Below, in pieces: positions 20,976-62,692 of a stretch of DNA of 64,000 nt (within the stretch, counting starts at the first letter, position 1; every line of letters starts with the position of its first letter). The notes under the pieces are model-generated. The model had not been told where the DNA came from. It made no database searches and worked only from the letters and a program-made list of their open reading frames with translations. Source of the stretch: Lucinisca nassula (taxonomy: Eukaryota; Mollusca; Bivalvia; Lucinida; Lucinidae). The stretch is from the NCBI GenBank assembly GCA_963580285.1, contig OY757016.1:42175124-42239123 (forward strand). The letters are read 5' to 3'. The position numbers were made by a program, and so were the translations under genes.

Positions 20976-21360
20976 ATAAAAATAAAAAATGAGTTCCTTT
21001 AAGAGCAATGAAAACATTCATAAGAAAGAAGATGGATCATACTACGTAGTTTCGGCTAATAAATAAAAATAAAAAATGAGTTCCTTTAAGAGCAATGGAA
21101 ACATTCATAAGAAAGAAGATGGGTCATACTACGTAGTTTCGGCTAATAAAGCCTCATCAGTGACCCTGTAATGATCCGGCAAAGAAAGCCAGAGGAAACC
21201 TACTGCAATTTTGCGAATTTCGAATAGGCAGTCGATTCAAAGACTGATATAAATCAAAATGGGGTCCAAATAATTAAAAACATGTCTAGAATATGAGTCC
21301 AAACCAATAATTATTTCCGATTTCTCAGAATATTTACGCTGATCTCAAAGGACCAAAGTA
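20976..21360 (-). mobile_element. Hammerhead retrozyme-like repeat D, 1.3 units, left of the LINE
   Basis: A truncated unit (20976-21061) lacks half of the ribozyme and is followed by a longer unit (21062-21360) with an intact hammerhead. The unit stops at GGACCAAAGTA, where the LINE begins. The missing part of the unit resumes at 35691 after the LINE. Uninterrupted units at 35.8-36.1, 52.4-52.7 and 61.9-62.7 kb give the empty-site sequence. Confidence 0.85.
21121..21166 (-). ncRNA. Type I hammerhead ribozyme, copy D1b (intact)
   Basis: On the minus strand: stem I GGGTCA, core CTGATGA, stem II GGC...GCC with a 7-nt loop, core GAAA, stem III ACT/AGT closing an ACGT loop, cleavage triplet GTA, then the other stem I strand TGACCC. 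All invariant core bases are present and all three stems pair. The short stem III is typical of hammerheads in metazoan retrozymes and Penelope-like elements, which are thought to act through dimers. Confidence 0.92.
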
Positions 21361-21480
21361 TACTGATTAGCCCTTTGTAGTTGTCAGTGTGCTGGCTGTG
21401 ACAAACTCGGAATCAGGATTGTTGCTTGATACCCATAAAAAATCATTAGAAATCATCAAATCACTATCCGGTATATTAAA

Positions 21481-21801
21481 ATGAAGGTCTCCCTGTTTCC
21501 CATGGTCTTAATTCTTGCGTTCACTCTTTGGAAAACAACTTACAGAATGCATCCAGATGATGGAAATCAGGAGTGCAAGATTACAAATAAGGAGAGCAGT
21601 AGTAGAATTTCCCAGTACTTGGCATTTACAAGGAAGAATGGGAACAGAAGGTGTTCGGAGGGCTTGCAAAACTTCAAGTCCTCACGCGGTACAAACTTGG
21701 CTTTACTTCTAATCTTGGCCGGAGACATTGAAACTAACCCCGGCCCAAGGTTTCACTGCGGACTCTGCAAAAATATTGCAAAGGTTCCGAGAAATGGATA
21801 G
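21481..21801 (+). pseudogene. LINE ORF start with 2A-like motif
   Basis: The ORF opens MKVSLFPMVLILAFTLW, a hydrophobic leader, and reaches LLLILAGDIETNPGP at about residues 75-89. D-I-E-T-N-P-G-P fits the D-x-E-x-N-P-G-P 2A ribosome-skipping motif, known in CR1-type and trypanosome LINEs and in sea urchin elements, where some 2As double as signal sequences. Just after it begins a Cys-rich PHD finger (CGLC), where a one-base frameshift near 21770 breaks the frame. Confidence 0.85.
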
Positions 21802-22088
21802 AATGTGAGGACTGTAACAAGCGCTTTCACTCCTCATGTTCTGATTTGGATAACAGTCAATTGTTAGAAATTGAATCTAGAGCTGGAACTTGGTATTGCA
21901 AAGACTGCAAAGCTGATTGTGGTCTTTGCAGTGGTGCTGTCCTTAATGGCCACAAAGCCGTTCAGTGTGATCAATGTGAAATGTGGATACACACTGAATG
22001 TTCCTTCATTTCAGATGCAGAATGTGGTACTTTGGTAAATTCAAGCTGCTACTGGGTATGTCCAAAATGTGAGATCTGTAACTTTTAA
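21760..22088 (+). pseudogene. LINE tandem PHD-type zinc fingers
   Basis: In the frame after the shift: WIECEDCNKRFHSSC, WYCKDC, then CGLCSGAVL, VQCDQCEMWIHTEC and WVCPKCEIC. The Cys4-His-Cys3 spacing is that of two consecutive PHD fingers. PHD fingers in LINE leaders occur in several CR1/L2-like families. Confidence 0.85.
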
Positions 22089-22142
22089 GACTCCTTCTTT
22101 GATGAATATGTAGAACTGAGTAAGCCAAACAGGTTTGAACCT

Positions 22143-22390
22143 ATGTCAGAGGATAAGAGAGGCAAATCTTCGACTGCTGATGAAACTAAGACACATTTTG
22201 TGAAAGGTTTGAAACTTTGCAGTATAAACATAAATGGAATTAGAGGAAAAATTCTTGAACTTTTAGCTTTCCTCGATACATCTCAGCCTCATATTGTTGC
22301 TATTCAGGAAACAAAGATTGACAGTTCAATTACTACATCTGATCTTTTTCCTGAAACTTGTCAGTACTGTGTCTACAGAAAAGATAGGAA
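22143..22390 (+). pseudogene. LINE APE endonuclease, N-terminal part
   Basis: LKLCSININGIRGK (catalytic Asn) and HIVAIQETKID (catalytic Glu) are the first two APE motifs. The frame is cut at about 22390 by the Penelope-like insertion. Apparent codons after VYRKDR belong to that insertion. Confidence 0.9.
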
Positions 22391-24169
22391 AAGTAGAAGT
22401 AAAACAAAGATCAGGAATCGATACAATTAACTTACTCCACCCATCAATAACACCAAAGGGAAAGAAACACAAACATTAAGCGACCAGACCATAATGGAAA
22501 CATAGACAAAGGAAGGCCATAAGGACAGTTACTTTCCCACAAAATGGCCATATGGCCATCCAAAATAAAAAGACACAAGTGATACACACAGTAAGAAACA
22601 AACAACACCATAGATAAACCACCACAGAAGAACCGCCTTGGAAAGGTCAGTGGAATGATTTCCACTGGGGGGCTTAAATCGATTTTACGTGGCCACAATC
22701 CTCACCCTTACTTCCGTCGCGATTTAGACAAATAATTTGTTCAGTCCGCATGAAGGCCTCCTAACTGATCAGTGCAACATCTCCGTGAACACAAAAAATC
22801 AAAGAACCACAGAGGTGAGACAACGGTGAGGACTCGACAGCAAGAAACCACTGAAATGCTGGAGCAAAAGAACACCAACAGTTAGACTCCGATAGGCCCG
22901 ACCAGAGACTGAGCATCAGGCACCAACCAACATTACCTTGAATTAGATCTCTCTAATTCTCAATAAGCCTTTACGTTGGAGCCGTCATAGAATCTGAGGC
23001 CTGACCCACCGGCGTGCAATTAAAGAGGGAAGCAAAGTTGCCAACCGTGACTGGGTTAACTACCATGCATGCAGTCTGTCGTATAACATCCATGTTGTAC
23101 CCAATCTTTTTATATCGAAGAATGATTTTACGAAATTGGGTGCTGAAGTCATTGCGGTTATATATTTTTCTGAATTTATATACTAAGTCACCATAAAATT
23201 CGGGTTCCGATAGACCTTGTTGCAGAAGAGATTTAAGTCCAATATTGAATTTTGAAATTAAATCAGAATGGCGTCTATAAAATTTTGAAAAGGCTTTGCG
23301 TAGTTTATGGTACCGATAACCCTGATTAAGGAGTTTAGCCGTTAATAATTTATTACGAGTGTTGAAGTCATTTACATGACTACACACTCTAGCAAAGCGA
23401 ATTAATTGCGAAATATAAACGCCATAGGATGGCGCACGAGGAACATCACCATCCAAAAAAGGAAAATTTACAATCTCAAAATCAAAGTCATCGCGTTTAT
23501 CATAAATTTTGCAAGAAACAAATCCATCTACAATAGATAGATGTAAATCCAAAAACGGGGCCTCGGTATCAGAAGAATTTGCTTTATTTAACTGAAGTTC
23601 TGGGGGGTAAATCTGACTGATCAAACCATCGAAATAGGTGTTATCAATATTTAATAAATCATCTAAATATCTAGAAGTGGAGCTAAAAGCTTCAATAATT
23701 TCAGATTGGTTATCAATGGAAAGCGACAACATGAAGTCTATTTCATAACAATACAAGAACAGATCAGCCACAAGAGGTGCGCAATTCGTACCCATCGGAA
23801 TACCCACAATTTGTCTAAATAACTTAGTACAGAATCTAATATAAATATTGTCAAGTAGAAAGGTGAGGGCATCACACACTTTCTGACATGACCAAAGTGT
23901 ATAATTCTTATGCTCTTTGGAAGTGAAAAATACATTTCTGACATTACATGCAAGATAGAGAGAATCTTCTCTGTGAAAAGCCCATTCATTAAATCATTAA
24001 GCTTTTCTTTTATAAGATTATGAGGAAGTGTAGTGTAAAGAGTGGTAAGTAGACAGACTTGAAGCACGAAAATGTCTGGATTTCAATTTATTTAAAACCT
24101 CATTCGATTTTTTTATAGACCAAAACAGATTTCTTCCTGATCTTTCAAAGACTTTATCACACTATTTAT
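22391..24169 (-). mobile_element. Penelope-like retroelement, 5'-truncated, inserted in LINE endonuclease
   Basis: Read on the minus strand: partial reverse transcriptase (24169-22971), then a 560-bp 3' region ending GTATCGATTCCTGATC...TTCTACTTT at 22391. The 3' region alone recurs more than ten times in the window (the B fragments below), as expected for an element that is frequently 5'-truncated. LINE coding resumes at 24170 with AACTCTCATGG. Confidence 0.8.
22971..24169 (-). pseudogene. Penelope-like reverse transcriptase, frameshifted
   Basis: The frame from 23879 to 22971 (302 codons) has GIPMGTNCAPLVADLF, the catalytic TSRYLDDLLNI box near residue 70, FLDLHLSIVDG, KIYDKRDDFDFEIVNFPF and SYGVYISQLIRFARVC. 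Upstream, the piece with TTLYTTLPHNLIKEKL lies in another frame, so a frameshift near 24000 breaks the RT. I see no GIY-YIG endonuclease downstream. The assignment to Penelope-like elements rests on motif style and is not certain; a clade with an N-terminal or no endonuclease would fit. Confidence 0.75.
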
Positions 24170-24948
24170 AACTCTCATGGCGGTGGGGTGATGTTGCTCA
24201 TTCATAGAGACATCCCTCACATGCCTTTCATGGAATTGGAAAATGGCACCGAATCGGTCTGGGTTAAGGTTTTTGCAAATAAAACTTCCCACTTCGTAGC
24301 AAGTTGGTATCGACCACCAAATGGTACGATCGAAAACTTCCAGTTGTTTAAAGACCAACTGGATTGCATCAAATCGCAGCATAAGGGTAAAAAACTCCCG
24401 GCTGTACATGTTCTAGGTGACCTCAACCTCAGAGGCATTGCTTGGCCCGACAGGCTCAGCAAACAAGGCACAATGCTGAGTCAGTCGGAAGGACAAATAT
24501 TAATTGATATTTCATGGCCTTCAACAAATTGTTAACTTCCCCACTCGTGATAAGAACACATTGGATCTGATCCTTACAACTTTGCCAGGACAATTCGAAG
24601 ACATTCATTCCCCAGATAAACTAAGTGACCACGATATTGTCTCCGGATATTTAAAAATTCACATCCCACCAATAAAGAAACCTCGGAGGAAGGTGTTCTC
24701 ATATCAGAAAGGTGACTATGAAACTATGAGGAAGGACGCACTCAGATTTGCAAAGGAGAAATACTTTAATGGTCATTCTGATGCTCGGTCTGTACAGGAG
24801 AATTTTGATTTGATAACTTATTTCATTCATACTTCAGCCGAAAATCATATCCCCTCAAAAACTAGTAGGTCTGTATCTTCTATTCCCTGGATCACTCCAG
24901 AGATAAGGAGAAAAATTCGCAGAAGGAATAAGATTCATGCAAAGGCAA
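24170..24948 (+). pseudogene. LINE APE endonuclease, C-terminal part
   Basis: HGGGVMLLIHRDIP, ASWYRPPN, VHVLGDLNLRGIAWP and, after a frameshift near 24510, NFPTRDKNTLDLILT and KLSDHDIVSGYL (final SDH motif). Catalytic residues D, N and H are present. It continues as a basic linker to KIHAKAN, where element E2 interrupts. Confidence 0.9.
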
Positions 24949-25009
24949 ACAAGAGGCCCAAGAGGGCCTGTCGCTCCACCGGCTAACTTCAAACAATTGT
25001 CATATTTAT

Positions 25010-25236
25010 TACATTAACCAATGGTATACTAGTGGACTCTTCTATTGCTATATGTTGGACCAGTCCATTTGTCATATAAGGGGTGTCAGGCCTATTTTTT
25101 TTCTATTTTTGATGGAAAATTCTGTTAGCAAATAGTGCAGGCCCTGATCAGACATGGTGTTCTGTGGGGTCTGATCTGGGCCAGCACTGTTTGCCAAGGT
25201 ACCCATTTAGGATTTTCCCGCATGCAATGGGTAAAA
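25010..25236. mobile_element. piggyBac-type P-family MITE nested in E2
   Basis: Paralogue of 3178-3385: ATTAACCAATGG start, GCAATGGGTAA end, shared CATATAAGGGGTGTCAGGCC segment and central hairpin. Confidence 0.65.
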
Positions 25237-26834
25237 AAAGAAACAAGTGATCCACCCAAGGAATGTCCATTCTATATTTTTTGGACCCCAGAGCTATGGT
25301 TGGCAGGATTTATGTGAGTGACCATTTGGCATTGCTCCGTTCTAAATATCTAAAGCTCTGGGCCTTATGGTTTCAGAGAAGAAGACTTTTTTTAAGTTTT
25401 TCCTAGTATAAGTCTATGGGAACTAATATGCCTCTGGGCGTGACCAATTTTTTACCCCAGGGGCATTGTTGGCAGGATTTATTTGAGTGACCACTTGACG
25501 TTGCTGCATACTTAATATCTAAGCTCTGGGCACTGATGGTTTCAGAGAAGATTTTTGTCAGTTTTTCCCAGTATAAGTCTATGGGAGCTTATGGGCCTCA
25601 GGGTGTGGTCAATTTGGACCCCAGGGGCATAGTTGGCAGGATTTATGCAGATGAATACTTCAAGTTGCTACATACTAAGCTCTTGGCCTTATGGTTTCAG
25701 AGGAGAAAAGTTTCAAGATTTTGTCATTATTAGTCTGTGGGAGCTACTAAGCACCGGGGCGTTGCCAATTTGGACTCAAGAGTCATAGTTCGCAGGACTT
25801 AGTAGGTGACCACATAACTTTGCTACATACTACAGTTCAACCTGTATTAAGCAAGTGCCTAAGGGATAGTCAAAATATGCTTGCTTAAGACAGGTTCTTG
25901 CTTAATACAGGTGAAATTTAACACATCTGCCTTTCTTGGGAACTGAATGCCTGCTTGCTTAAGACAGGTTGCTTGCTTAATAGAGGTGGCCACTAAGACA
26001 GGTTTTACTGTAAATGTCTTAGCTTTAGGCTTTATGGTTTTAGAGAAGAAGTTTTTCCGTTTATTGGTCTATGGAAGCTTATGAGCCAAAGGTGGTGGCC
26101 ATGGCGGCCATGTTTTTTGTCTGATCAAAATTTCTTCAATGAATCTGACAATGGTAGACACAAGGAACATTCATGAAAATTAAGAACGAAATCCATTTAG
26201 CGGTTTTGGAGGAGAAGATTAAAAAAAAAAAAGATCCCTTTATGAGTCTATGGAAGCTAATTAGCCAATGGGCGTGTCCATGGCGGCCAGTTTTTTTGTC
26301 TGATCAAAATTGCTTCAAGGAATCTGACAGAGGTCCACCCAAGGAACATTCATGCAAAGTAAGAATGAAATCCATTACGTTGAGCGGTTTTTGAGGAGAA
26401 TGTTTTTAAAACTTTTCCCCATATAAGTCTTTGAAAGCTAATGAGCCAAGGGGCATGGCCATGGCAGTCATGTGGGGCATGGCCATGGTGGCCATGTTTT
26501 TTGCCTGATCCGAATTTCTTCAAGGAATCTGACAGAGGTCCACCCAAGGAACATTCATGCAAAATAAGAATAAAATCCATTGAGCGGTTTTGGAGGAGAA
26601 GATTTTTAAATATTTTTTTTTTGCTTCCGATGCCATTTTGTTCTGCATGTAACAAAATTCTTTGAAGGAATTCAGAAGAGGACTATGTGAGAAACATTCC
26701 TGTGAAGTTTGGTTACAATCGACCGAGTAGTTAAGGAGGAAATGTTTAAAGAAAAAAGTTAACGCACGGATGCACAACCGCACAGACGCACAACAGACAC
26801 AGGGCCATGTAACATATAACATAAGACCCACCGG

Positions 26835-26857
26835 TCTTTGGCCAGAGGAGCTAAAAA
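26835..26857 (+). other. Internal 3' terminus inside E2
   Basis: CGGTCTTTGGCCAGAGGAGC followed by TAAAAAA, preceded by a GCACGGATGCACAACCGCAC tract, mirrors the outer 3' end at 30912-30934. It may be an older terminus bypassed during transposition, or the end of a separate, merged copy. Confidence 0.55.
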
Positions 26858-27869
26858 ATGAACAGATTTATGTTTTCATTTCTTTATTTATTTATTTTTT
26901 CCTTTCCACCGTCGGATTCGGTATGCCTCCCTTTTCAACTAAGCCATTTTAACCCTCAGGGATCTGGAGAACTGTTGACACTGTAGTATAATTAGGTCTA
27001 ATAAATCAACCTCCCTCAGTATTTTGAATTTATTTTGAAACATCAAGTCGTATAAATAGAGTTTGTGTTGAAAACATCAGTTCTATCACCAGTGTGATGG
27101 GCATGTGAAATTTCTGATGTTTTGAATTTTAGAATGACAATTTGTAGGTGGACCTCTATAGATATGTGATAGTCAGCAAAATTGGAGGAGATTAATTCAG
27201 ATACAGGAAGGTACTTTTAAATAAATAAATAATTAAATAAACAAGAACTTTTGAAGAAGAGAAGACTTTTTAACATTACACTACATGTTATATAGTGAAA
27301 ATAAACCCCGCCCACTGCAGCCATGTTTTATGTCGGATCAAAATGTCTTCAAGGAATCTGACAGAGGTCCACCCAAGGAACATGCATGCCAAATAACTAT
27401 GAAATAAAACAAGAACTTTTGCAGAAAATATTTTCAGCATTACACTATATGTTATATAGTGAAAATAAGCCTCGCCCATGGCGGCCATGTTTTTTTGTAA
27501 GATCAAATTTTTTTCAAGGAATCTGACAACAGTCCACCCAAGGACAATTCATGCAAATTACAATGAAATCCCACAAGTACTTTTGCAGAAAATGATTTTT
27601 TAGCATTACGTTATATGTTAAATAGTGAAAATAAGCCCCGCCCATGGCGGCCATGTTTTTTGTCGGATCAAAATTTCTTCAAGGAATCTAAGAGGTCCAC
27701 CCAAGGAACATTCATGCAAAATAAAAACAAGGCATCGCATGCGATACAAATCCCCTCGCACTAGACAACTTCGTGTGTGGAAAACACTGAAATGGCAAAA
27801 GTCCAACTTGCTTGAGATATTATCATGTGCAACATTTGTGTAAAGTTTGTTTAAAAATCCTCCAATAAA

Positions 27870-29840
27870 TGTACATTCTAGAGTGATGACGTTTCTCTAA
27901 AAATAGCCATAGTGACCTTGACTTGAGGCCATGACCACGAAAGTAGATCTTGCTCAAGATATTATCATAAGCATCTTTTGTGTGAAGTTATATTAAAATC
28001 TGTTAATAAATGTAGGCGGTAGAGCGATGAGAAAGTTTTTCTAAAGATAGCCACAGTGACCTTGACTTTGAGGTCATGACCTTGAAAGTCGAAGAAAGTC
28101 GAGATATTATCATAAGAAACATTTGTGTGAAGTTCTATTACAATCCATCATTAAATGTAGGCGCTAGAGCGATGACAAAGTTTTTCTAAAAATAGCCACA
28201 GTGACCTTGACCTTGAAAGTCTAAATAGCTCGAGATATTGTCATAAGGAACATTTTTGTGAAGTTATATTGAAATTTGTGAAAAAATGTAGTCACTAGAG
28301 CAATGACAAAGTTTTTCTAAAAATAGCCACAGTGACCTTGACCTTGAAAGTCAAACTCGCTCGAGGTATTGTCATAAGGAACATTTGTGTGAAGTTATAT
28401 TGAAATGGATGAAATATTAGCGCTAGAGCCATGACAAAGTTTTTCTAAAAATAGCCACAGTGACCTTGACCTTGAAAGTGGAACTCACTAGAGATATTGT
28501 TATATGGACATTTGTGTGAAGTAATATTGAAATTGGTGAAAAAAATGTAAGCGCTAGAGCAATGACAAAGTTTTTCTAAAAATAGCCACAGTGACCTTGA
28601 ACTTGAAAGTCAAACTCGTTCGAGGTATTGTCATAAGCAACATTTGTGTGAAGTTATATTGAAATCAGTGAAGAAATGTAGGCGCTAGGGCGATAACAAA
28701 GTTTTCTTAAAACAGCCATAGTGACCTTGACCTTGAAAGTCGAAATGGTGAGATATTGTCATAAGGAACATTTGTGTGAAGTTATATTGAAATCGATGAA
28801 GAAATGTAAGCGCTAGAGGGATGACGAAGTTTTTCTAAAAATAGACACAGTGACCTTGACATTGAAAGTGGAACTCGCTAGAGATATTGTCATAAGGAAC
28901 ATTTGTATGAAGTTATATTGAAATTGGTGAAGAAATGTAAACACTAGAGCGATGACAAAGTTTTTCTAAAAAATAGCCACAGTGACCTTGACCTTGACCT
29001 TGAGGCCTTGACATTGATAGTCGAACCCGCTTGAGATATTGTCATAAGGAACATTTGTGTGAAGTTATATTGAAATCAGTGAAGAAATATAGGCGATAGA
29101 GCGATGACAAATGTTTTTTTCTAAAAATAGCCACAGTGACCCTGACCTTGAGGCCATGAGTTGGAAAGTCAAACCCGCTGGAGATATTTTTAAAAGGAAC
29201 ATTTGTGTGAAGTTATATTGAAATTGGTGAAGAAATGTAGGCGCTAGAGCGATGAAAATGTTTTTCTAAAAATAGCCACAGTGACCTTGACCTTGAGGTC
29301 ATGACCTTGAAAGTCCAACTCGCTCAAGATATTGTCATAAGGAACATTTGTGTGAAGTTATATTGAAATCAGTGAAGAAATGTAGGAGCTAGAGCGATGA
29401 CAAAGTTTTTCTAAAAATAGCCACTGTGACCTTGACCTTGAAGCCATGACCTTGAAAGTGGAACGCGCTCAAGATATTTTTATAAGGATCATTTGTGTGA
29501 AGTAATATTGAAATTGGTGAAGAAATGTAAGCGCTAGAGCGATGACAATGTTTTTCTAAAAATAGCCACAGTGACCTTGACCTTGAGGTCATGACCTTGA
29601 AAGTCAAACTCGCTCGAGATATTTTTATAAGGATCATTTGTTTGAAATAATATTGAAATTGGGGGAGAAATGTAGGCGCTAGAGCCATGACAAAGTTTTT
29701 CAAAAAATAGCCAGAGTGACCTTGACCTTGAGGTCATGACCTTGAAAGTCGATCTTGCTCCAGATATTGTCGTAAGGAACGTTTGTGTGAAGTTATATTA
29801 AAATCGGTCAAGAAATGTAGGGGCTAGAGCGATGACAAAA
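27870..29840 (+). repeat. About 130-bp tandem array inside E3, about 15 units
   Basis: The unit contains GCTAGAGCGATGACAAAG, TTTTTCTAAAAATAGCCACA, GTGACCTTGACCTTGAAAGT and AACATTTGTGTGAAGTTATA. Units vary from about 125 to 150 bp because the GACCTTGA block is repeated one to three times. Confidence 0.92.
28071..29742. promoter_or_regulatory. Clustered nuclear-receptor-type half-sites in E3 array
   Basis: The perfect palindrome AGGTCATGACCT occurs at 28071-28082, 29296-29307, 29586-29597 and 29731-29742. Most units also carry TGACCTTGACCTTGA, which on the minus strand gives overlapping TCAAGGTCA extended half-sites (the ERR/NR5A consensus). Sequence match only; function is not shown. Confidence 0.45.
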
Positions 29841-29999
29841 GTACGTACGTACGTATGTGGCACCAGAGCGATGACAAAAGCACGTATGTACGTGGCGCTA
29901 GAGCGATGACAAATGTACGTACTTACGTACGTACGTACGGGACAAATGCTATATCCCCGCTCACAACTATGTTGTGCGAGGGGATAATGAAATCCAACA

Positions 30000-30830: not shown

Positions 30831-30934
30831 AAAGAAAAAGTTAACGCACGGACGCACGGACGCACGACCGCACGGACGCACGACGGACACAGGGCCATGA
30901 CAATAGCCCCGCTGGCCTTCGCCAGTGGAGCTAA

Positions 30935-35690: not shown

Positions 35691-36120
35691 TATAAACTGC
35701 ACTATTGTTGATGTACGGGGAGACGTTTTACGGCCGCCACACGGCACAACACCAGCTGCAGTGAAGGCAAATAAAAATAAAAAATGAGTTCCTTTAAGAG
35801 CAATGAAAACATTCATAAGAAAGAAGATGGGTCATACTACGTATTTTCGGCTAATAAAGCCTCATCAGTGACCCTGTAATGATCCGGCAACGAAAGCCAG
35901 AGGAAACATAGTGCAATTTTGCGTATTTCGAATAGGCAGTCGATTCAAAAACTGATATACATCAAAATTGGGTCCAAATAATTAAAAACCTGTCTAGAAT
36001 ATGAGTCTAAACCAATAATTTATTTCTGATTTCTCAGAATATTTACGCTGATATCAAAGGACCAAATGTAAAATATAAACTGCACTATGGTTGGTGTACG
36101 GGGAGACGTTTTACGGCCGC
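35691..36120 (-). mobile_element. Hammerhead repeat D, right of the LINE
   Basis: Resumes the split unit at TATAAACTGCACTATTG, passes GGGGAGACGTTTTACGGCCG and GCAGTGAAGGCAAATAAAAA, then a full further unit with a mutated hammerhead. A SINE A copy cuts it at 36120. Confidence 0.85.
35829..35874 (-). ncRNA. Hammerhead ribozyme copy D2 (stem III weakened)
   Basis: Same layout as 21121-21166, with stems I and II intact, but one base of stem III has changed (C to A next to the GAAA core), giving an A-G mismatch. It may be weak or inactive. Confidence 0.85.
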
Positions 36121-42650: not shown

Positions 42651-44513
42651 ATGTTTGAAAGTGAGCCTGTTGAGTCTAGTCTGTACTGTGCACTTTGCAT
42701 CATGGCTTCAGCGAGGTCTGCTTCTAGATTTGCTTGCGGTGTCTGTCAGAAATACTGTGCAGGTGGAAGTGTTCGGTGTGGTCAGTGTACAAATGGTATC
42801 ATGGTACGTGTGAAAATATCTCTGAACCCCAGTTAGAACTATGGGAATGTTCATGTACAGAACTCTTGATGGAACAGCCTTTGACTATCCATTTGGAATT
42901 TGTAGGCTCGCTGCTGCTGCTACATAAATCATTGACTGGTTGAGGACCGCTGTCTTGCGTGAACGTCTGTTTAAGCCTGAATTTAATTTTGACAGCAGTG
43001 AATTTGCTACAATTTCTATGGGCAGAGATGAGGTTGCTTCCCATATAATGGCTAAGTATGTTGAAAATTTGACTGGTGATTCAGTGTCGTCAGCTGGAGA
43101 GGGCAATTGTCTATTCAATGCTGCAGCATTCAGACTGCAAGGGAACGAAAGACTGGCCCCTGTTCTCAGATAATTTACTTGTTTGAATATGGTAGACAAT
43201 TTGCATAGCTATTTTAACCATCCTCAGACACGCCATGTTCAATTATTGTCCCCGTCTTTTGAAAAAGCAACTTTAGATTGTGCTCGGAATAGTCGTTACT
43301 CGTCTGTGTGGACAATTATGGGACTTTGTGATGTTATAAAAAGTAGAAGTTAAACAAAGATCAGGAATTGATACAATTAACTTACTCCACCCATAAAAGA
43401 CACCAAAGGGAAAGAAATACAAACATTAAGCCAACATACCATAATGGAAACCTAAACAAAGGAAGGCCATAAGGACAGTTACTTTCCCACAAAATGGCCA
43501 TATGGCCATCCAAAATTAAAAGACACAAGTGATACACACAGTAAGTAACAAACAACAACATAAATAAATCGCCACAGAAGAGCCGCCTTGGAACGGTCAG
43601 TGGATGATTTCCACTGGGGGCTTAAATCGATTTTACGTGGCCACAATCCTCACCCTTACTTCCGTCGCGATTTAGACAAATAATTTGTTCAGTCCGCATG
43701 AAGGCCTCCTAACTCATCGGTGCAACATCTCCGTGAACACAAAAATCAAAGAACCACAGAGGTGAGACAACGGTGAGGACTCGACAGCAAGAAACCACTG
43801 AAATGCTGGAGCAAAAGAAAACCAACAGTTAGGCTCCGATGAGCCCGACCAGAGTCAGAGCATCAGGCACCAACCAGCATTATCTCTCTAATTTTCAATA
43901 AGCCTTTACGTTGGAGCCGTCATAGAATCTGAGGCCTGACCCACCGGCGTGCAATTAAAGAGGGAAGCAAAATTGCCAACCGTGATTGGGTTAACTACCA
44001 TGCATGCAGTCTGTCGTATAATATCCATGTTGTACCCAATCTTTTTATATCGAAGAATGATTTTACGAAATTGGGTGCTGAAGTCATTGCGGTTATATAT
44101 TTTTCTGAATTTTTATACTAAGTCACCATAAAATTCGGGTTCCGATAGACCTTGTTGCAGAAGAGATTTAAGTGTCTTTTGCGCTTAATCCACTCCCACT
44201 TTAATAGTAAGAATGACCTGGCAGATAAAACGTTCAATAATGTATTCTACACAGAAGAGATGATTCCGATGCAAAACCGGTGTATATTATACGGTATAAA
44301 ATGGGTCAGCTTCCACTTCCTGGAACATGGTATGCTGTTAATCACTTTGCTGCCGTGCTTAATGTGAGGGACAACATACCACCTCGGTCTTCTCGGGCAT
44401 CAACAACTGTGTTGAACATGTCTGCACACCCACATGCGACCGATGAAAAAGATGCATGGGTGATCCCCAAAGGAATGAAACGAACTTCAGCATCGTTGTT
44501 GGCGTCAGTGTAG
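42651..44513 (+). pseudogene. Broken PHD-finger plus OTU-like coding sequence
   Basis: The N-terminal frame has ACGVCQKYCAGGSVRCGQC; a frameshift near 42790 then gives WYHGTCENI and WECS, completing a PHD-like Cys4-His-Cys3 finger. From 42940: EFATISMGRDEVASHIMAKY, SSAGEGNCLFNAAAF (OTU-like G-x-G-N-C-L-F-N with catalytic Cys) and, past a stop, HPQTRHVQLLSPSFEKATLD. After the Penelope insertion (43338-44172) come DLADKTFNNVFYTEE and TWYAVNHFAAVLN, resembling the OTU catalytic His block. At least three frameshifts make it non-functional. OTU-like genes of this type (vertnin-like) are common multicopy genes in bivalves; whether it was mobile is unknown. Confidence 0.6.
43338..44172 (-). mobile_element. 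Penelope-like element B5, with RT C-terminus
   Basis: Same as 22391-23250: the 3' region followed by the RT C-terminal codons (near-identical to the copy at 22971). The element is 5'-truncated at about 44172. Confidence 0.85.
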
Positions 44514-52128: not shown

Positions 52129-52387
52129 CCAGCGTTCTTTGATAGGAGACCACCCTTGGAACTATCCTTAGAGACCATTTTTAGCAGTTCCAATGATGGT
52201 CTTAACACATCAGTTTTACTGTATTATATCCATTAATTATTTATCGCGCGGAAACAGAGGTTGAAAAGTGTATTCTTCATAATTTAAGCAACTCCCAACA
52301 TGATCAAATATCTCTAATTTAAGCAGCAGTTTGTCGAAGCTGAAACATAGAAAATCGCTAGGCACTGAGATTTGAATGACTTCTCCC
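52129..52387. other. No recognised feature
   Basis: Short unique-looking stretch. Confidence 0.4.
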
Positions 52388-52724
52388 CGTACATCAACCA
52401 TAGTGCAGTTTATATTTTACTTTTGGTCCTTTGCGATCAGCGTTAATATTCTTAGAATTCGGAAATAAATTATTGGTTTAGACTCATATTCTAGACAGGT
52501 TTTTAATTATTTGGACCCCATTTTGATTTATACCGGTCTTTGAATCGACTGCCTATTCGAAATTTGCAAAATTGCAGTATGTTTCATCTGGCTTTCTTTG
52601 CCGGATCATTACAGGGTCACTGATGAGGCTTTAGTAGTCGAAACTACGTAGTATGACCCATCTTCTTTCTTATGAATGTTTTCATTGCTCTTAAAGGAAC
52701 TCATTTTTGATTTTTATTCAGTAT
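52388..52724 (+). mobile_element. Hammerhead repeat D3, monomer (opposite orientation)
   Basis: Plus-strand copy running CCCCGTACATCAACCATAGT to GCTCTTAAAGGAACTCATTT, with an intact LINE-target segment (TTTATATTTTACTTTTGGTC). Confidence 0.88.
52614..52659 (+). ncRNA. Type I hammerhead ribozyme, copy D3
   Basis: Stem I GGGTCA/TGACCC, CTGATGA core, stem II GGC/GTC (one G-U wobble), GAAA core, stem III ACT/AGT with ACGT loop, GTA cleavage triplet. All catalytic-core bases retained. Confidence 0.92.
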
Positions 52725-52904
52725 GTAAATAGATGTAATATTGTTCTATTTTTTATTCAAAACATACTGTCAGTGTGTCAATTGTCAAAACATTATAATT
52801 TAATCAAACACCGGATTAAAGACGGCGTGGTTCGTCAATGTTTTCAGGCGTGAATGTATATGAAAGCGTGTTGTCAATTAGTTTGATGTAATTGATACTT
52901 TATA

Positions 52905-53165: not shown

Positions 53166-53511
53166 CGCAAACGAAAAACAGATTGCAATGATATTATCAT
53201 ATTTTTATGCTATTGCATTTTGCTGTTGTGGTTTTGTTTATCTATTTCTTGTATTTCTACTGATGTTGTACATCAACGTATTGCCAAAATGATAAGAATG
53301 CAATATACTCTAGTCTTTTCTCCATTTACAAATATCAAGTTAAATAAAAGTCTATGGAATGACAACCTGCAAAACCCAAAGTTAATAAAAGGGGTTAGCA
53401 TTATTTTTGTCTATATATGTTCTGACACAAAGTTTATTGTAATCGTTGTTACACCTACAAAGAGCAAGTACCAATAATATATATATCACACTTTTTCATT
53501 ACTCTTGTGTT
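53166..53511. other. No recognised feature
   Basis: An 85-codon ORF at 53220 is not protein-like enough to call. Confidence 0.4.
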
Positions 53512-53623
53512 GTTTTGTTTTATTTGAGGTTTAACGTCCCTGTCTACACAATTTATGGCATTTTGGAGACGTTGCTTTCAGATATGTGAGACTTTTATCC
53601 GACATTGAGATGAAATGACAACC
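53512..53623 (-). mobile_element. SINE A tail fragment cut by Penelope fragment B7
   Basis: TTGAGGTTTAACGTCCCTGT through CCGACATTGAGATGAAATGA, then AAAATAGAAG of B7. Confidence 0.75.
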
Positions 53624-55040: not shown

Positions 55041-55639
55041 ACAGGTGCATGCATGCAGGCTTATCTGTTTTCAATGGGCATAGACAATAAATGTTTTACG
55101 GTCTTTGGTAAATCTATGTCCAAAATCATTTTAACAAGTCCAGAAAAAGACCCGAATATCTCACTTTATACAGATAATTCTTTCGCCGGCCGGTTCGTAA
55201 AACATGAAAACATCTACAATAGCAAATATATATTTCTATATAATTGCTTTAAAATTTGCGGCCAGTAATATGTCAAAGAAAACATTTTACTTCAAAATCT
55301 TCAGCAACGCACTGTCTTTATTCTGCAATTGTTGCATACAACTTGACAATGTCTGTGGCGTAAAACGAATTAAACAATAAATAAATATTAGAAATAAATA
55401 TATTATCTACATGCACGTCAAGCTTTGTGACCCAAAACAACAAAATAAAGTAATATTCAGCATTTCAGCAGATCAGCGTTTGAGTCACTTTCTGCTGATC
55501 CGCATCTGCTGTTGTTCAGCGTTTTAGGTCCCAAATCCATGTAACGGTTATTTATAGAATTTAATCGTGCTATTCCTATCGTTGTGAGGTCAGAATGTTA
55601 CGTTAGATAGCTATCTATAAAATTAGGACTTGAATAATG
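55041..55639. other. No recognised feature
   Basis: A 71-codon ORF (55053-55268) shows no known motif. An inverted CAGCAGATCAGCG/TGCTGATCCGC pair lies near 55465-55505. Confidence 0.4.
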
Positions 55640-55725
55640 AGTTGAGTTTCGCAAACAGTATATATCCATATCAGACGTCTGATCAGGGTCTACACTATAT
55701 GCTCACAGTCCAGGAATTTATGATT
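55640..55725. mobile_element. P-family hairpin remnant
   Basis: CGCAAACAGTATATATCCAT and GATCAGGGTCTACACTATAT arms. Confidence 0.45.
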
Positions 55726-55834
55726 TAAATGAAACTGTGAGTTTTATGAGGAGCTATACGTAAAAGACTTATCTATACTCTTGACTGGAATCATGTGTTG
55801 GTTTTTGCAAACAGTGTGTCCCAGATCTGACGTG

Positions 55835-55930
55835 GTGAGATCTGGGTCATTGAGGCGGTGAAGCAGGTCTAACGAGCACCTAATCCCTATGTTTTTGCTG
55901 TATAAATAAGCAAAATATAACGGGTCTCAT
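55835..55930. mobile_element. F-family half copy
   Basis: GAGGCGGTGAAGCAGGTCTA and ATCCCTATGTTTTTGCTGTA segments match half of an F foldback. Confidence 0.4.
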
Positions 55931-56013
55931 CAGCAAATCAGCCATTTTGGAGATGTTAAAAATTGCACTATGTCGCACGCGTGTGTGTTGTCGTAATGAA
56001 CAGTAAGGACATG

Positions 56014-56668
56014 AGCAACGGAAGTAATGGCGATTTGTTGGTTTGTTTGTTTGATTTGAGGTTTAACCTCCCCGTCAACACATCTTAGGTCATTTTGGAG
56101 ACTTTGCTTTCAATTTTGTGGGACTTTTACCCGACATTGAGATGAAACATCTCAATCCCTGCCACACAGTGAAGCCAATAGAGTCTATAAGCATGGATGG
56201 GCCGACTTGCAACAATTTTCCTGGGTAGGCTTAGACCTAAGCGGATTACCAGTACTCATGTGCGGTCGGTATCAGCTCTGCGTGGAAGCATCGTGCAGCC
56301 CAATCTATTTCTCCAAGCCCCGATGGGCGGGGCGGGGAAGTAATGGCGAGGATTGTGACCACATAAAATCGATTCAAGCCCCCCGCCCCAGTGGAATTTG
56401 TTTCACATGTCGTTCTAAGGCGGTTCTTCTGTCGTGGTTTATTTTTGTTATGGATTGTCTTTGAGTGTGTGTATCGCTTTTATTATTTTGCTTTCGATAA
56501 CCAATTGGTCATTTTGTGGGAAAGTAACTGTCCTTCTGGCTTTCCGCTTGTGATGTTTCCATCAGGGTCTAGTTGTGTCAGGTTTGTGTTTCTTTCCCTT
56601 GGTGTCTCTGTTGGGAGCTGTGGGTTAATTGTATCGATTCCTGTTCATTGCCTTCGCTCCTATTTTGG
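56014..56668 (+). mobile_element. Penelope-like 3' fragment B11, split by SINE A
   Basis: The fragment flanks a SINE A copy. The right part runs GCGAGGATTGTGACCACATA to TTAATTGTATCGATTCCTGT. Confidence 0.8.
56034..56335 (-). mobile_element. SINE A, full length, 14-bp TSD
   Basis: A 302-bp element between two copies of GGAAGTAATGGCGA (56020-56033, 56336-56349). The duplication is perfect and fixes the ends of family A: a CAAACAAACAAA-type tail at 56034-56052 and a CCCGCCCATCGGGG head at 56320-56334. Confidence 0.92.
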
Positions 56669-56689
56669 TGATCACTGAATAATGTGAAA

Positions 56690-58205
56690 TAATGCCCATA
56701 CAAGTAGAGTCTGAACGCCCCACTTGCGTATGCGACTACTTTTCAATTTTGCATTAATACGCTTCCAATGCCAACGGAGGCTTCCATCCACTGAAAAAAC
56801 TGTGTGAGTCAGTTCTCTCGGATCAAAGTACGCAATTACAGTGCCATTTGTAAGCTCTCATTTTAGCTCTTTAAATACATCCTACATTTCCGCTGGCCAG
56901 TGCCATTGTACATCCTGTCTCATGAGGTATCTTAGAGAAGATTTAATTGTGCTGTATTGAGGTTTGAACCTTGACAAATAATTGCTCATGGCCAAAATAG
57001 AACATACTTCTGATACACATGAGGGTATGTCCATGTTTTTGATGACACCCACCTTCTCTAGTGAAGCTGAAATTCCTGCTGAGCTGAATACATGTCCGTA
57101 AAACTATTCTTATTTAATGTCAAATTCTTCTTTTGAAGTCGCGCAAATGTCGCCTCGAGCCTCCTATCATGTTCTTCCTGGTCTTTTCCACATACGATTA
57201 TGTCAACGCGTATGTTCTTAACACCATCTTATCTATATAACACTTTTGAAATATTTCCGCCGCAGAATTTATTCCAAAACACAAGCGTTTATAGCGAAAC
57301 AATCATGCATGTGTAGTGAAGAATGTTATGTTCCTCGACCGTTCTTACAGAATTAACTGATTTAACTAAATCCAACTTCGAAAACACTTTAGCGCCGTTT
57401 AAATCCACTATAATGTTATTCACAGTAGGAATTAAGTATCGTGTACATTTTATGGTACGGTTTGGTTCCCTCTTATCAACGCAGATTCGAACCTCGTCCG
57501 GTGATTTAGGTTTGGATGCAGCCACAATGGGCGAAACCCATGGTGTAGCCCCGCCATCGACTTCCTCAGTTAGATCATTGTCCACCATGAGTTTGAGTTC
57601 CTTTTCCACGTCTTTTCGCACATGAAAATGTATTCGTATGTGAGGCTGTTGTACCGGTTGAACATAAGGGTCTATGTACATTAATGCTTGATCCAGTGTT
57701 CACTAGCATTCTTAGATTTAGTCTATTAATTGCCACATTCAAACTCGGCTGCTTAGTTTTCACTGAATTAACGCTTTTCAGTTCGTGTATTCCAAACATA
57801 TAATCACCATTTGAGTCACTAATTGTGCCACAGCATATGTCGCTTCAACTTGTTTGACAGATTTTACTTTTGTCTTCATTTTCGATCGGCAAACTGAAGA
57901 AAAGTGGTTCTGGTTTTACACGCGTGGCAAGATTTTTCTTTTGCCGGACACTGTCTGTCGGTCCACAGTTCATACATGTTTTTAAAATGTAATTTCGCCT
58001 CTGGCGACATTTGAAAGTTTTTCGCGGCTTTTCCGTGTGTTTGATTTCACATGCCTGTTTGTCTGATAATTCCATTGATCTAGCAAGTCTCAACAGTTCA
58101 TCAAGAGTCTGGTCCTCGCGTAAAGCCCTGCGTCGTCTTTTGGGGAGCTGCAGCCTTGAATTATTTGTGACTTGACCTCCTTGTCTTTTTCTGTAAAGTC
58201 GCAGT
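56690..58205 (-). pseudogene. Decayed Ty3/gypsy-like LTR retrotransposon (gag-pro-RT-RNase H order)
   Basis: Minus strand, from right to left. A gag-like C-terminus with TLDELLRLARSMELSDKQA and a lone CMNCG (58249-57845). A protease-like LVNTGSSINV (about 57690), where the catalytic D-T-G reads N-T-G. An RT with PHIRIHFHVRKDVEKEL, TPWVSPIVAA and FSKLDL (57681-57289), then, after a deletion and stops, YKRLCFGINSAAEIFQ (about 57260). Last, a DPRELTHTVFSVDGSL-like segment toward 56800. Many frameshifts and stops; no LTRs found. Confidence 0.75.
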
Positions 58206-58212
58206 TTATACG

Positions 58213-58540
58213 AAATAGAAGTGAAGGCAATGACAAGGAATCGATACAATTAACCCACAGCTCCCATCAGAGACACCAAAGGGAAAGAAACACAAACATG
58301 AAACAACTAGATCCTAATGGAAACATCGATAACGGAAAGCCAAAAGGACAGTTGCTTTTCCACAAAATTGGCCAATTGGCCAAAACAAAATAATATAAGC
58401 GATAGACACACTCACAGTCTAGCCTAGCCTAACAAAAATAAACCACGTCAGAGAAGAACCGCCTTGGAACAGTCAGTGAAACGAATTCCACTGAGGGGGA
58501 GGGGATCTTCGCCCTTACTTCCGTCGCGATTAGGCGTAAA
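58213..58540 (-). mobile_element. Penelope-like 3' fragment B8
   Basis: AAATAGAAGTGAAGGCAATG start; ends near CTTCGCCCTTACTTCCGTCG. It cuts the gypsy-like remnant. Confidence 0.75.
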
Positions 58541-58739
58541 AAAGAAAAGCTGTGTTTCCACTTACATGCTGAAAAAAAATTTGGTTGATAGGTAAGAGAA
58601 ACTTCTTTTTATTATTTTATTTTTTCTCCAGAAGAAAACAGTGTAGGCCTGTATTTTTTATGTGTTTTTATTTTTGTACATGATTTTTGTCAGTAAACCT
58701 GTCATGTTGAGACTTGCCCTGTATATCAAAATTCATTTT

Positions 58740-59525
58740 TAGACCAGTGCTCATAAACTAGAAATTGAAAGAGGCCGGTATTCATTTCCCAACCGCATAT
58801 GTATGCAATGTTGTAAAGGGTTAGTTGAAGATGAACTGCATTTCTTGTTAGTATGCCTAAAGTACAGTTTAGAAAGAAACACATTTTTTAACCAAATTCA
58901 AAATAAAACTTCTTTGTTACTGTCTATGCATCAGAAATTTATTTGGCTTATGAGTAATGAGGAGACTAGAATTTGCAAAGTTGTTTCAAGTTTTATTTTA
59001 CAAAGTCTTAATAAGCGTGATAATTAATAAGCTTAGACTTATAACAGTCACCTTGGCGCAATGAGTCAACAACTTATAAATTATAAATTGGAGTTGTTGG
59101 CTTTTTGCGCTGGGTGACGACTGTTACAGTCAATCACTCTTATAACTATACAACATTTTTATCTTTATATATGTTGGCTACTGGACCCAGGTGTGCAGAA
59201 TTTTGCGTGAGCTTAATTACTATATCTTGCACTCTTATTACATTTACAAATGGTAGTGCTATTATTAAACTTTATGTTTAATGCTCTTAATTAAAACATA
59301 GCTGTACTCTTGGACCCAGTTGACAACTAGCAAAGACCTATGTTCCTAAATATATGGTATTTAAAGATGTCTCCCTCTGGCAGCTTTAGTATAGGTAAAG
59401 GCTAGAAGTTTTATTTCATTACTTTTTTTTCTTTTTCTTTGTTCTTATTCTCTTTTCCTTTGTAATTATATGTCTCATTAGTGAAACGTTCTGTTCTGAT
59501 GAATAAACTTGTAAACTTGTAACTT
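58740..59525 (+). mobile_element. LINE 3' end (ORF2 C-terminus plus 3' UTR)
   Basis: The open frame to 59027 has RYSFPNRICMQCC, VEDELHFLLVC and LSMHQKFIWLM, the C-x-x-C ... E-D-E-x-H-F-L-x-x-C block found at the C-terminus of many LINE proteins. The 500-bp 3' UTR carries GTTGTTGGC and GGACCCAG motifs and ends with the short repeat AACTTGTAAACTTGTAAC. Clade not determined. Confidence 0.65.
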
Positions 59526-59529
59526 TTAG

Positions 59530-60149
59530 ATGCTCAAAAAGTCAGCTCTGTACTTTGGAAGGTACTAAATGCCGAAAACTACAAAAAAATGTACTTAAAA
59601 CGCGAAAATACTATGGGAAAATGCAACGACGACATTGGGTAGGGTCGGACGGTAGGGTCTGTGTTTTAATTTCCATAAAATAGTAGAGTCGGGGCGGTGT
59701 GTGTATGTGTTGTGGGGAGGGGGGGGGGGTCTGAAGCAGGGTCGGTCGGGTAAGCGAAAACACGGCTATTTTTTTAGGCCTAAGCTGTCTCAGCCTGGTC
59801 AAATATGCGTCGATCCCTTCCTCGGGCTGTTGTTTAGCTTGTCGGAATTTATATATTTCGTATTCTGTATTCTTCTTTGGAATAAAATAGCCAAAGTGTT
59901 GATCAATGCCGTTGCATAATCATCTCAAGTGTATGTTAACGTTTCAAAGATGTCGTTAACGTCTTTCCCAGCGGAGTGAAGAAGTAAAGCTGACGTTGTT
60001 ATGTCTTTGATGTCCATGCCGACAAGAAGATTCTCCAACCGTTTATCCATTTTCGCCAGTGTATGTCCAAGGCAGTTTCATGGATATTAAAAAGGTGGAA
60101 ATGCCGGTAATGCTGATGCCATATTTACCTGTTTTTAACAGCTAATTGG
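59530..60149. other. No recognised feature; G run
   Basis: An uninterrupted G run lies at 59717-59730. No gene seen. Confidence 0.5.
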
Positions 60150-60318
60150 TCCAGTTAATCAGTGTTGTGGGAAAGTAACTGTCCTTTTGGCTTTCCGCTA
60201 TTGATGTTTCCACTAGGGTCTGTTGATTCATGTTTGTGGTTCTTTCCCTTTGGTGTCTCTGATGGGAGCTGTGTGTTAATTGTATCGATTCCTGATCATT
60301 GCCTCCACCTCTATTATA
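60150..60318 (+). mobile_element. Penelope-like 3' fragment B12
   Basis: GTGGGAAAGTAACTGTCCTT to TTAATTGTATCGATTCCTGA. Confidence 0.75.
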
Positions 60319-60550
60319 CTAATTAATGTTATTTGCTGAAGTTGCTGCATATCCTTCCTTTTCTCTTCTTGAAAAGTTTTCAACTCACAGTATACTACTT
60401 TAGATATTTAATATATTAAACCCGCAGAGCAACTGAAGTAGATTCTGCGAGCATGCTGTATTATAATCTGAACTGTAACGTTTTGTTGCGGTAAATATGT
60501 AAATGACGTATACATATAAACAATAACACTACAGTATCTGTTTAGTGATT

Positions 60551-61315
60551 TTTTAATTGGGGTTTAACAACCCCGTCAACACTATATATGTCATTTTGGA
60601 GACGTTGCTTCCAATTCTGTGGGACTTTTACCCGACATGGAGATGAAATGTCATCTCAAGCTCTGCCGCCCAATGAAACCAATAGGGTTTATATGCACAG
60701 ACGGTCCGACTCGCACTACTTTGCCTGCCCTGGACCAGCATTTCTGTGGTTTCTTGTTGTCGAGTCCTCACCCTTGTTTCATCTCTGTGGTTGTTTGATT
60801 TTTGTGTTCTCGGAGATATTACACTAATGAGTTAGGATGCCTTCACGCTTACTGAACAAATTATTTGTCAAAATCGCGACGGAAGTAAGGGCGAGGATTG
60901 CGGCCGCGTAAAATCGATTTATGCCACCCGGTGGAGTTCGTTCCACTGACCGTTCCAAGGCGGTTCTTCTGTCCAGATTTATTTTTGTTATAGTTTGTCT
61001 TTGAGTGTGTGTATCGCTTATATATATAGTTTTTGTTTTGTTTTGGATAGTCAGTTAGCCATTTTGTAGGAAAGTATCTGTCCTTTTTGCTTTCCGCTAT
61101 CGATGCTTCCATTAGGGTCTAGTTATTCGTGTTTGTGTTTCTTTCCCTTTGGTGTCACTTATGGGTGGGTTAATTGTATCGATTCCTATTAATTGCCTTC
61201 ACTTCTGTTTAGACCTTCAAAGCGAGTACCAGTACTCTCGTGTGGTTGGTTGCAGCTCTGCGTGGAAGCATCATGCAGCCCAATCTATTTCTCCCAGCCC
61301 CGATTGGCGGGGCCA
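60551..61315 (-). mobile_element. SINE A split by Penelope fragment B13
   Basis: The tail and middle lie at 60551-60733 and the head at 61206-61315. The two halves join in the order of an intact A copy, so B13 inserted into this SINE. Confidence 0.78.
60734..61208 (+). mobile_element. Penelope-like 3' fragment B13
   Basis: TTTCTTGTTGTCGAGTCCTC to TTAATTGTATCGATTCCTAT and TTGCCTTCACTTCTGTTT. Confidence 0.8.
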
Positions 61316-61394
61316 ATCACAAATGATAATAATGAATATTGATAGACGTCTAACATTCTACTATTCTTTCTTTCTTTTGTATAACCCTCAATAC

Positions 61395-61520
61395 AGAGAG
61401 TGTGGATACTCACAGTCTAGCCTAGCCATAACAAAAATAAACCACGACAGAGAAGAACCGTCTTGGAACAGTCGGTGAAACGAATTCCACTGAGGGGGGG
61501 GGGGGGGGATCTTCGCCCGT
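61395..61520 (-). mobile_element. Short Penelope-like fragment B14 with G run
   Basis: ACTCACAGTCTAGCCTAGCC and GGATCTTCGCCCGTACTTCC match B8. The G run is at 61494-61508. Confidence 0.6.
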
Positions 61521-61666
61521 ACTTCCACCGAGGCTGTATTTACACGCACAGAATGCAATGCTAGTGATTATAGAGCCTGAACTTAAGCTCAGCTCAGCTT
61601 ACTTACTTTACTCATCTGACAATGATGACTGATAAGTAATCTAAGTAAAGTAAGTAAATACCGCAA

Positions 61667-61908
61667 CGGGCCTCCGTGGCCTAGTGGATAAGAGCGCTGA
61701 CTCTTAGTCATTAGGTCTCTCACCGCCGTAGGTTCGAGCCTCGCTCGGGGCACGTTTGAGACGCCAAGTTCTGCAACGGAAGGTCAGGTGGTTTTTCTCC
61801 GGGTACTCCGGTTTTCGCCCACCTCTGATTAACGATCGGCTCGATATGAGTGAAATAATCTTTAAAGGGCCGTAAAACCAAAACAAAAAAAAAAAAAAAA
61901 AAAAAAAT
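61667..61908 (+). mobile_element. tRNA-derived SINE S3, poly-A tail, 15-bp TSD
   Basis: Head CCTCCGTGGCCTAGTGGATA (A box) and GTAGGTTCGAGCCTCG (B box), body with CGGGTACTCCGGTTTTCGCC, tail A23. The perfect target duplication AAGTAAATACCGCAA lies at 61652-61666 and 61909-61923. Low divergence of the duplication means a recent insertion. Confidence 0.93.
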
Positions 61909-61977
61909 AAGTAAATACCGCAAAAATCAAAAATGTGTTCCTTTAAGAGCAATGAAAACATTCATAAGAAAGAAGAT

Positions 61978-62023
61978 GGTCCATACTACGTAGTTTCGGC
62001 TAACAAAGCCTCATCAGTGGCCC
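61978..62023 (-). ncRNA. Hammerhead ribozyme copy D4 (one stem I mismatch)
   Basis: Core complete. Stem I is GGGCCA against TGGACC, with one unpaired position; stems II and III pair. Confidence 0.87.
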
Positions 62024-62361
62024 TGTAATGATCAGGCAAAGAAAGCCAGAGGAAACATACTGCAATTTTGCAAATTTCGAATAGGCAGTCGATACAAAGA
62101 CTGATATAAATCAAATTGGGATCCAAAAAATTAAAAACCTGTCTAGAATATGAGTCTAAACCAATAATTTATTTCTGATTTCTCAGAATATTCACGCTGA
62201 TCTCAAAGGACCAAAAGTAAACTATAAACTACACTATGGTTGATGGTACGGGGAGACGTTTTACGGCCGCCACACGGCACAACACCAGCTGCAGTGAAGG
62301 CAAATAAAAATCAACAATGTGTTCCTTTAAGAGCAATGAAAACATTCATAAGAAAGAAGAT

Positions 62362-62407
62362 GGGCCATACTACGTAGTTTCGGCTAATAAAGCCTCATCA
62401 GTGGCCC
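62362..62407 (-). ncRNA. Type I hammerhead ribozyme, copy D5 (covarying stem I)
   Basis: Stem I GGGCCA/TGGCCC pairs perfectly. Compared with GGGTCA/TGACCC in D1b and D3, both partners of one base pair have changed (T-A to C-G). The CTGATGA and GAAA cores, the stems II and III and the GTA cleavage triplet are intact. Confidence 0.92.
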
Positions 62408-62692
62408 TGTAATGATCAGGCAAAGAAAGCCAGAGGAAACATACTGCAATTTTGCAAATTTCGAATAGGCAGTCGATACAAAGACTGATATAAATCAAAT
62501 TGGGATCCAAAAAATTAAAAACCTGTCTAGAATATGAGTCTAAACCAATAATTTATTTCTGATTTCTCAGAATATTCACGCTGATCTCAAAGGACCAAAA
62601 GTAAACTATAAACTACACTATGGTTGATGTACGGGGAGACGTTTTACGGCCGCCACACGGCACAACACCAGCTGCAGTGAAGGCAAATAAAA

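Follow-up and report, generated by a model that had tools for sequence, protein, structure and literature searches.

A putative non-coding hammerhead retroelement in Lucinisca nassula whose insertions share a 3′ end

The window analysed here, a 64,000-nucleotide stretch of the bivalve Lucinisca nassula (assembly GCA_963580285.1, contig OY757016.1, positions 42,175,124–42,239,123), contains five complete type I hammerhead ribozyme motifs of 46 nt, with D1, D2, D4 and D5 on the minus strand and D3 on the plus strand. The motifs sit in four insertions of a non-coding unit of 383–384 bp (Table 1), and nearly all sampled insertions of this unit in the genome end at a single 3′ point downstream of the predicted hammerhead cut. 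The evidence supports the insertions being copies of a putative non-autonomous, non-coding retroelement of the metazoan retrozyme kind. We consider it probable (roughly 0.6) that a Penelope-like or similar enzyme produced them from a circular RNA, by target-primed reverse transcription that started at an internal site; here we infer the circle, the ribozyme activity and the helper.

Table 1. Positions in the window of the insertions, hammerhead motifs and predicted hairpin
Feature	Position	Strand	Remarks
Insertion 1	20971..21364	-	394 bp, with a 90-bp duplication inside; 3′ end at the common point (BLAST against the unit)
90-bp duplicate bearing the half motif	20971..21060	-	copy of 21061–21150
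D1 hammerhead	21121..21166	-	stem I GGGTCA/TGACCC; predicted cut between 21127 and 21126
Insertion 2 (also L009)	35691..36120	-	430 bp, 1.12 units; atypical 3′ end, phase 145
D2 hammerhead	35829..35874	-	stem I GGGTCA/TGACCC; one stem III pair broken
Insertion 3	52379..52718	+	340 bp, 0.89 unit; 3′ end at the common point, phase 65
D3 hammerhead	52614..52659	+	stem I GGGTCA/TGACCC; predicted cut between 52653 and 52654
Insertion 4	61922..62692	-	head-to-tail dimer, 771 bp, 2.01 units; RNA-sense 5′ end 62692, 3′ end 61922
D4 hammerhead	61978..62023	-	one stem I pair broken; predicted cut between 61984 and 61983
D5 hammerhead	62362..62407	-	stem I GGGCCA/TGGCCC; predicted cut between 62368 and 62367
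Predicted hairpin	62613..62678	-	just 3′ of the common insertion end, phases 73–138; from circular fold and alignment; similar in the second family

Positions within the unit (phases) were numbered from the predicted cut in the RNA sense. The 90 array rows were reduced to 78 with new flanks, then to 71 of at least 300 bp and finally to 66 with both flanks on the retrieved piece. An end was counted as anchored when ATTTTTATT(T) lay within 12 nt of the BLAST end with at most two mismatches. By this rule, 62 of the 66 flank-distinct insertions end at one 3′ point, ∼62–67 nt past the predicted cut. The BLAST ends of the anchored insertions fall at phases 65–67 in 51 cases, at phase 62 in two and at phases 68–77 in nine, the last of which we take as BLAST extending a few bases too far. 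The 3′ flanks of loci L048 and L059 are 99.3% alike, and these two may not be independent. In a second sample, 19 of the 20 ends that were retrieved later stop at the common point or within a base or two of it (L084 has a deletion nearby), and the remaining one (L088) continues into the next unit; the query for this sample itself ended at the common point, so copies that end earlier are under-sampled and run-on copies less so. The unit holds 17 runs of at least three T, yet the 3′ ends concentrate at this one point.

The stretch that contains the common end has two T5 runs (phases 51 and 58), as would suit an element resembling a short interspersed element, whose linear polymerase III transcript would terminate in the T-rich stretch and be copied from its 3′ end by the machinery of long interspersed elements. 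5′ truncation, which is common with that machinery, would fit as well. We nevertheless regard this origin as very unlikely, because 57 of the 62 inserts are longer than one unit, so that transcription would have to read through the T5 runs, and because the measured ends of a second hammerhead family (see below) have no T4 run. A simple pattern search of one unit, with what we take to be the A and B box patterns, found neither box.

The target sites also have features in common. Of the 62 insertions, 18 have the motif AGG[CT]T in the final 20 nt of their 5′ flank, compared with 2/62 and 1/62 in two windows further out (Fisher's exact test, 1.3e-4 and 2.1e-5, respectively). The search for empty sites gave 85 paralogous pairs, many of them from few insertions, and the details of empty sites given here and below hold among the pairs listed. 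L043 sits within GATTTGAGG-TTTAA-CGTCCCC and has TTTAA at either side, and short duplications that open with a T run were also seen for L055 (TTTA) and L002 (TTTAAG); at L046, L052 and L078 the insertion sides have 3–4 bases in common. A permutation test gave no sign of long target duplications, and the short ones were seen in the empty-site comparison only. In the empty sites of L043, L055 and L002, the final TT(T) of the element overlaps the target T's, so that the A's at the end of a nicked strand could pair with UUU at phases 64–66. Some of the repeats hit by the element have relatives in the window. A frame at 22971–23993 (minus strand), whose relatives elsewhere are retrozyme targets (L046 and L071), contains GIPMGTNCAP and YLDD, which we take to be reverse transcriptase motifs, and gave no Pfam match below 0.05. 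Weak SECIS_1-like matches below the gathering score, at 43854–43933 and 22905–22996 (minus strand), fall in a repeat that is also hit by the retrozyme (L017) and are probably due to chance.

The 62 anchored insertions are 340–3950 nt long; 57 are longer than one unit, 24 reach two units and seven reach three, and their lengths are non-integral. Lengths above the query threshold fit an exponential distribution (Kolmogorov–Smirnov p = 0.97, mean excess 375 nt), with thresholds set by hand for each query and the longest insertion excluded. The 5′ ends vary between insertions. Two units have on average 0.59 diagnostic and 1.87 other differing sites when taken from the same array, and 8.58 and 5.35 when taken from different arrays, as if each array had been copied from one template; later homogenisation may also have had this effect. 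In insertion 1, the direct duplication of ∼20971–21060 and 21061–21150 (97.8% identical) reads as copying that reached stem II and then restarted at the common start site. Among 186 cut sites followed by a tail, it is the only genuine internal jump, the two further flagged cases being shifts of a base or two. The half motif that the preliminary description had noted at 21034–21061 is correctly placed, but it is a piece of this duplication rather than an independent hammerhead.

A fixed 3′ end, free 5′ ends and lengths above one unit are likewise predicted if the same element was copied, also from an internal start, from an uncut linear multimer that derives from a genomic array, with the hammerhead idle. 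Such a template has a precedent in a Penelope-like element, for which uncut RNA is the dominant substrate and hammerhead mutants insert normally (PMC11167929). We consider this explanation unlikely, as daughters of a linear template could only become shorter unless recombination restored their length, yet 57 of the 62 insertions exceed one unit, and as the 5′ flank continues as target repeat in the empty-site pairs listed, with no foreign source flank; neither point is decisive.

In the predicted circular fold of the L011 unit, phases 58–72 are unpaired and a hairpin begins at phase 73 (ACUGCA paired with UGCAGU); the z-score of this fold is −2.3, as against −1.6 for the unit from the window. 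Around the hairpin and the hammerhead motif, the first family resembles a second, diverged one. This second family was found at nine loci (L002, L013, L021, L046, L048, L059, L067, L070 and L072), among which L048 and L059 look like a single duplicated copy, with further pieces at L039 and L073. Its cut triplet is GTC in some copies and GTA in L059, and its unit is ∼261 nt, as judged from one partial dimer (L059). In the five of the nine loci that were measured (L021, L059, L046, L070 and L067), the last matched position is 83–88 nt past the cut, at ACATATTT and variants of it. These ends are softer than those of the first family, as L046 lacks part of stem III and L067 and L070 have diverged at their ends. 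Across the families, one pair of the hairpin shifts from G-C through G-U to A-U (seven sequences). Covariation in the hairpin did not rise above shuffles in these seven sequences (144 of 500), and it was dropped as support because it consists of this one pair and shuffles equal it. At L067 (minus strand, ∼1.7 kb in), the 3′ side of a first-family copy directly abuts a second-family copy, which could be either a nested insertion or a template jump.

All five hammerheads of the preliminary description were found at the positions that it gave. The pattern CTGATGAG-N11-CGAAAC-N6-GTA, scanned with up to three mismatches, has five matches in the window, whereas 100 shuffles averaged 0.10 and never reached five. 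The cut positions were placed from what we take to be the type I hammerhead consensus. The catalytic core is kept in all five motifs, as had been described. D2 has GAAAA where GAAAC is expected, with loss of a stem III pair but no damage to the core, and stem I of D4 is GGGCCA/TGGACC in the RNA sense, with one unpaired position. The Rfam covariance models, which had been suggested as a check on the motifs, remained below the gathering score throughout the window, and the search of the whole window gave no match at E ≤ 10. On a 501-base piece only weak matches were obtained, the best being RF03152 with 19.1 bits (gathering score 56.3), followed by RF00008 with 18.8 and 17.4 bits (gathering score 48.5). 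Rfam was therefore dropped as a means of calling this hammerhead.

The stem I sequences of D1, D2, D3 and D5 are as the preliminary description gave them, and the compensatory change that it read from them stands in part. Among 172 complete motifs, pair −36/+3 is U-A in 138, U-G in 18, C-G in eight, C-A in seven and G-A in one. The change is thus real, with both intermediates present, but limited to a single pair and possibly to a single lineage. Each of the four combinations of U/C with A/G occurs (Fisher's exact test on loci p = 0.007, where loci may count in two classes), and an alignment of 11 motifs from the window and the second family contains no pair with a two-sided change relative to its commonest pair. 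For these reasons the compensatory change was downgraded to weak evidence.

The assembly comprises 2.93 Gb in 696 contigs, and unit copies are dispersed over many of them. Three unit queries returned 1635, 2179 and 1839 first-look candidates and 70, 88 and 66 matches from 40 scored each, all of which are overlapping lower bounds. We retrieved 78 loci, which were the best matches and are therefore weighted towards young copies. The length of a full unit is 383 bp in 93 of 114 cases and 380–385 bp in the others, with a GC content of 38% in the two units measured. The arrays are plain head-to-tail units numbering from 0.9 to 10.3, and the dimer claimed in the window proved real (insertion 4; BLAST against the unit). 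The repeat had also been described as free of open reading frames, and indeed no stop-to-stop frame of at least 90 amino acids overlaps the four insertions. We sampled 181 hammerhead motifs, 172 of which, from 67 loci including the window, are complete and without gaps. Greater conservation of the core than of the rest of the repeat, proposed beforehand as a test, was observed, modestly and in this young-biased sample: variation per nucleotide is 0.5% in the core (11 positions over 172 motifs), 1.7% in the remainder of the motif and ∼2.3% in the remainder of the unit (114 units outside the motif). The type I hammerhead, the low-GC, non-coding unit of 383–384 bp and its dispersal as monomers to decamers, in a genome that additionally contains Penelope-like elements, support the identification as a metazoan retrozyme.

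Some arrays are long, such as that of L071 with 10.3 units, and at G000 C10:115437234-115458783 retrozyme matches extend over ∼21 kb, in blocks at 383-bp spacing and beyond the usual few units, possibly through secondary amplification. Arrays of this kind are what ordinary satellite DNA would form by unequal crossing-over, the hammerhead being a relic. This is the explanation to which we give least credence, since copies lie on many contigs with distinct flanks, a common 3′ end and empty sites within other repeats, and since core positions vary less than the remainder. Insertion 4 is adjoined at 61665–61907 by an element resembling a short interspersed element, with a transfer RNA-like head, a poly-A stretch and the TAAGTAAATACCGC repeat on both sides; ARAGORN called no transfer RNA in it. 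At 16801–17550 (minus strand), the window also contains a FAM120-like frame (constitutive coactivator of PPAR-gamma-like) with many animal relatives.

Candidate helper enzymes are present in the same genome. The search for the GIY-YIG domain gave 138 matches among 150 scored candidates. In L082, reverse transcriptase motifs and a GIY-YIG stretch were read by eye in one frame; in L081 they occupy neighbouring frames, and its open reading frame matches RVT_1 at 2e-9 (a comparison run on L081 only). No helper bearing a hammerhead was identified among the loci inspected, L079 being a coding sequence, L080 uninformative, and L081 and L082 having no hammerhead. Three pairs of GIY-YIG matches lie ∼3.8–4.0 kb apart on the same strand (G000, C5:35878300/35882109, C6:63493014/63496822 and C5:145336487/145340514), as tandem Penelope-like elements would. 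Penelope-like elements have been named a strong candidate helper for retrozymes (PMC7229834). According to Frangieh et al. (2024; PMC11167929), a purified Penelope-like protein starts reverse transcription internally, 111–118 nt into the open reading frame and in agreement with genomic ends, and the hammerhead cut of that element is 26 nt into the frame. By our arithmetic, its start is therefore ∼85–92 nt past the cut, a distance comparable to the 62–67 nt of the first family and the 83–88 nt of the second.

In the mechanism that we favour, internally started copying of a circle, read-through RNA would be cut by its hammerheads and a host ligase would circularise the monomer. A helper with endonuclease and reverse transcriptase would nick T-rich targets, and the nicked strand ending in A's would prime synthesis inside the RNA, at the U-rich stretch beside the hairpin. 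The enzyme would then copy round the circle until it dropped off. Because a circle has no 3′ end, an internally starting enzyme would be needed. A more specific version for animal retrozymes in general, which we hold to be an even bet, is that the hammerhead-made circle carries a dedicated hairpin recognised by a Penelope-like enzyme, which starts ∼60–90 nt past the cut from an A-rich target-end primer and makes an arbitrary number of turns, so that the circle restores array length in each generation.

Several observations speak against copying of a circle from one internal start. Two insertions, L009 (phase 145) and L024 (phase 174), stop at other points, and anchoring failed for L010 (phase 52) and L063 (phase 74, near a related T-rich string). 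In the fold of the unit from the window, the start is open only in part. The 5′ phases are non-uniform, with 8, 15, 13, 4, 1, 2, 7 and 11 ends in successive 48-nt bins (n = 61); the sparse bins may be stretches where the enzyme seldom drops off. Units inside one array are not identical. The empty sites of L017, L041 and L071 have no duplication or a small loss, and a permutation test for target duplication over the 62 insertions was not significant (3.55 versus 3.48 ± 0.13). The two Penelope-like elements sampled, L081 and L082, have no hammerhead and only chance-level similarity to the unit. In the in vitro system of PMC11167929, the hammerhead is dispensable for insertion and uncut RNA is the main substrate. 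The case as a whole is built on DNA sequence.

The element resembles metazoan non-LTR (long terminal repeat) retrozymes as presented by Cervera and de la Pena (2020; PMC7229834), which have type I hammerheads in dispersed, low-GC, non-coding tandem units of 150–450 bp (∼350–390 bp in mussel) in genomes with Penelope-like elements. For those retrozymes, expression, cleavage and circles were demonstrated, whereas the element described here is known from its sequence; conversely, a fixed 3′ end or start site, as described here, does not appear in the parts of that account consulted. The Nematostella repeats are given 15-bp target duplications in PMC4918200, in contrast to the short or absent ones found here. 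The Penelope-like Poseidon element of Anolis (PMC11167929) similarly combines a hammerhead, tandem copies, AT-rich targets and ends at an internal start tens of nucleotides past the cut. The unit here, however, is non-coding, and no homology to the two Penelope-like elements inspected (L081 and L082) was found; the encoded reverse transcriptase and GIY-YIG endonuclease that mark a Penelope-like element are missing from the four insertions, in which no frame reaches 90 amino acids. Plant LTR retrozymes (PMC4918200, PMC7761336) are also small, non-coding hammerhead retroelements that are thought to spread via circular RNA, but they are described with type III hammerheads in LTRs, a primer binding site, a polypurine tract and 4-bp duplications, unlike the type I hammerhead in plain tandem units seen here.

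In the account of PMC7229834, the step from circle to DNA was left open, with the remark that it must be properly primed, by target DNA or by a small RNA. A literature search judged by titles and the openings of abstracts, with subscription papers and supplements outside its reach, listed no report of a fixed reverse-transcription end for animal retrozymes. The useful part of our analysis lies in how the insertions end, a pattern that supports internal, target-primed copying of a putative circle. Together with the exponential lengths, the common 3′ end and the free 5′ ends argue for a single start site and a single mechanism, so that the question becomes testable: the start, the adjoining hairpin and the target motif are defined to within a few nucleotides, and candidate helper enzymes are found in the same genome. 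If true, this mechanism would also help to explain why retrozymes and Penelope-like elements both carry hammerheads.

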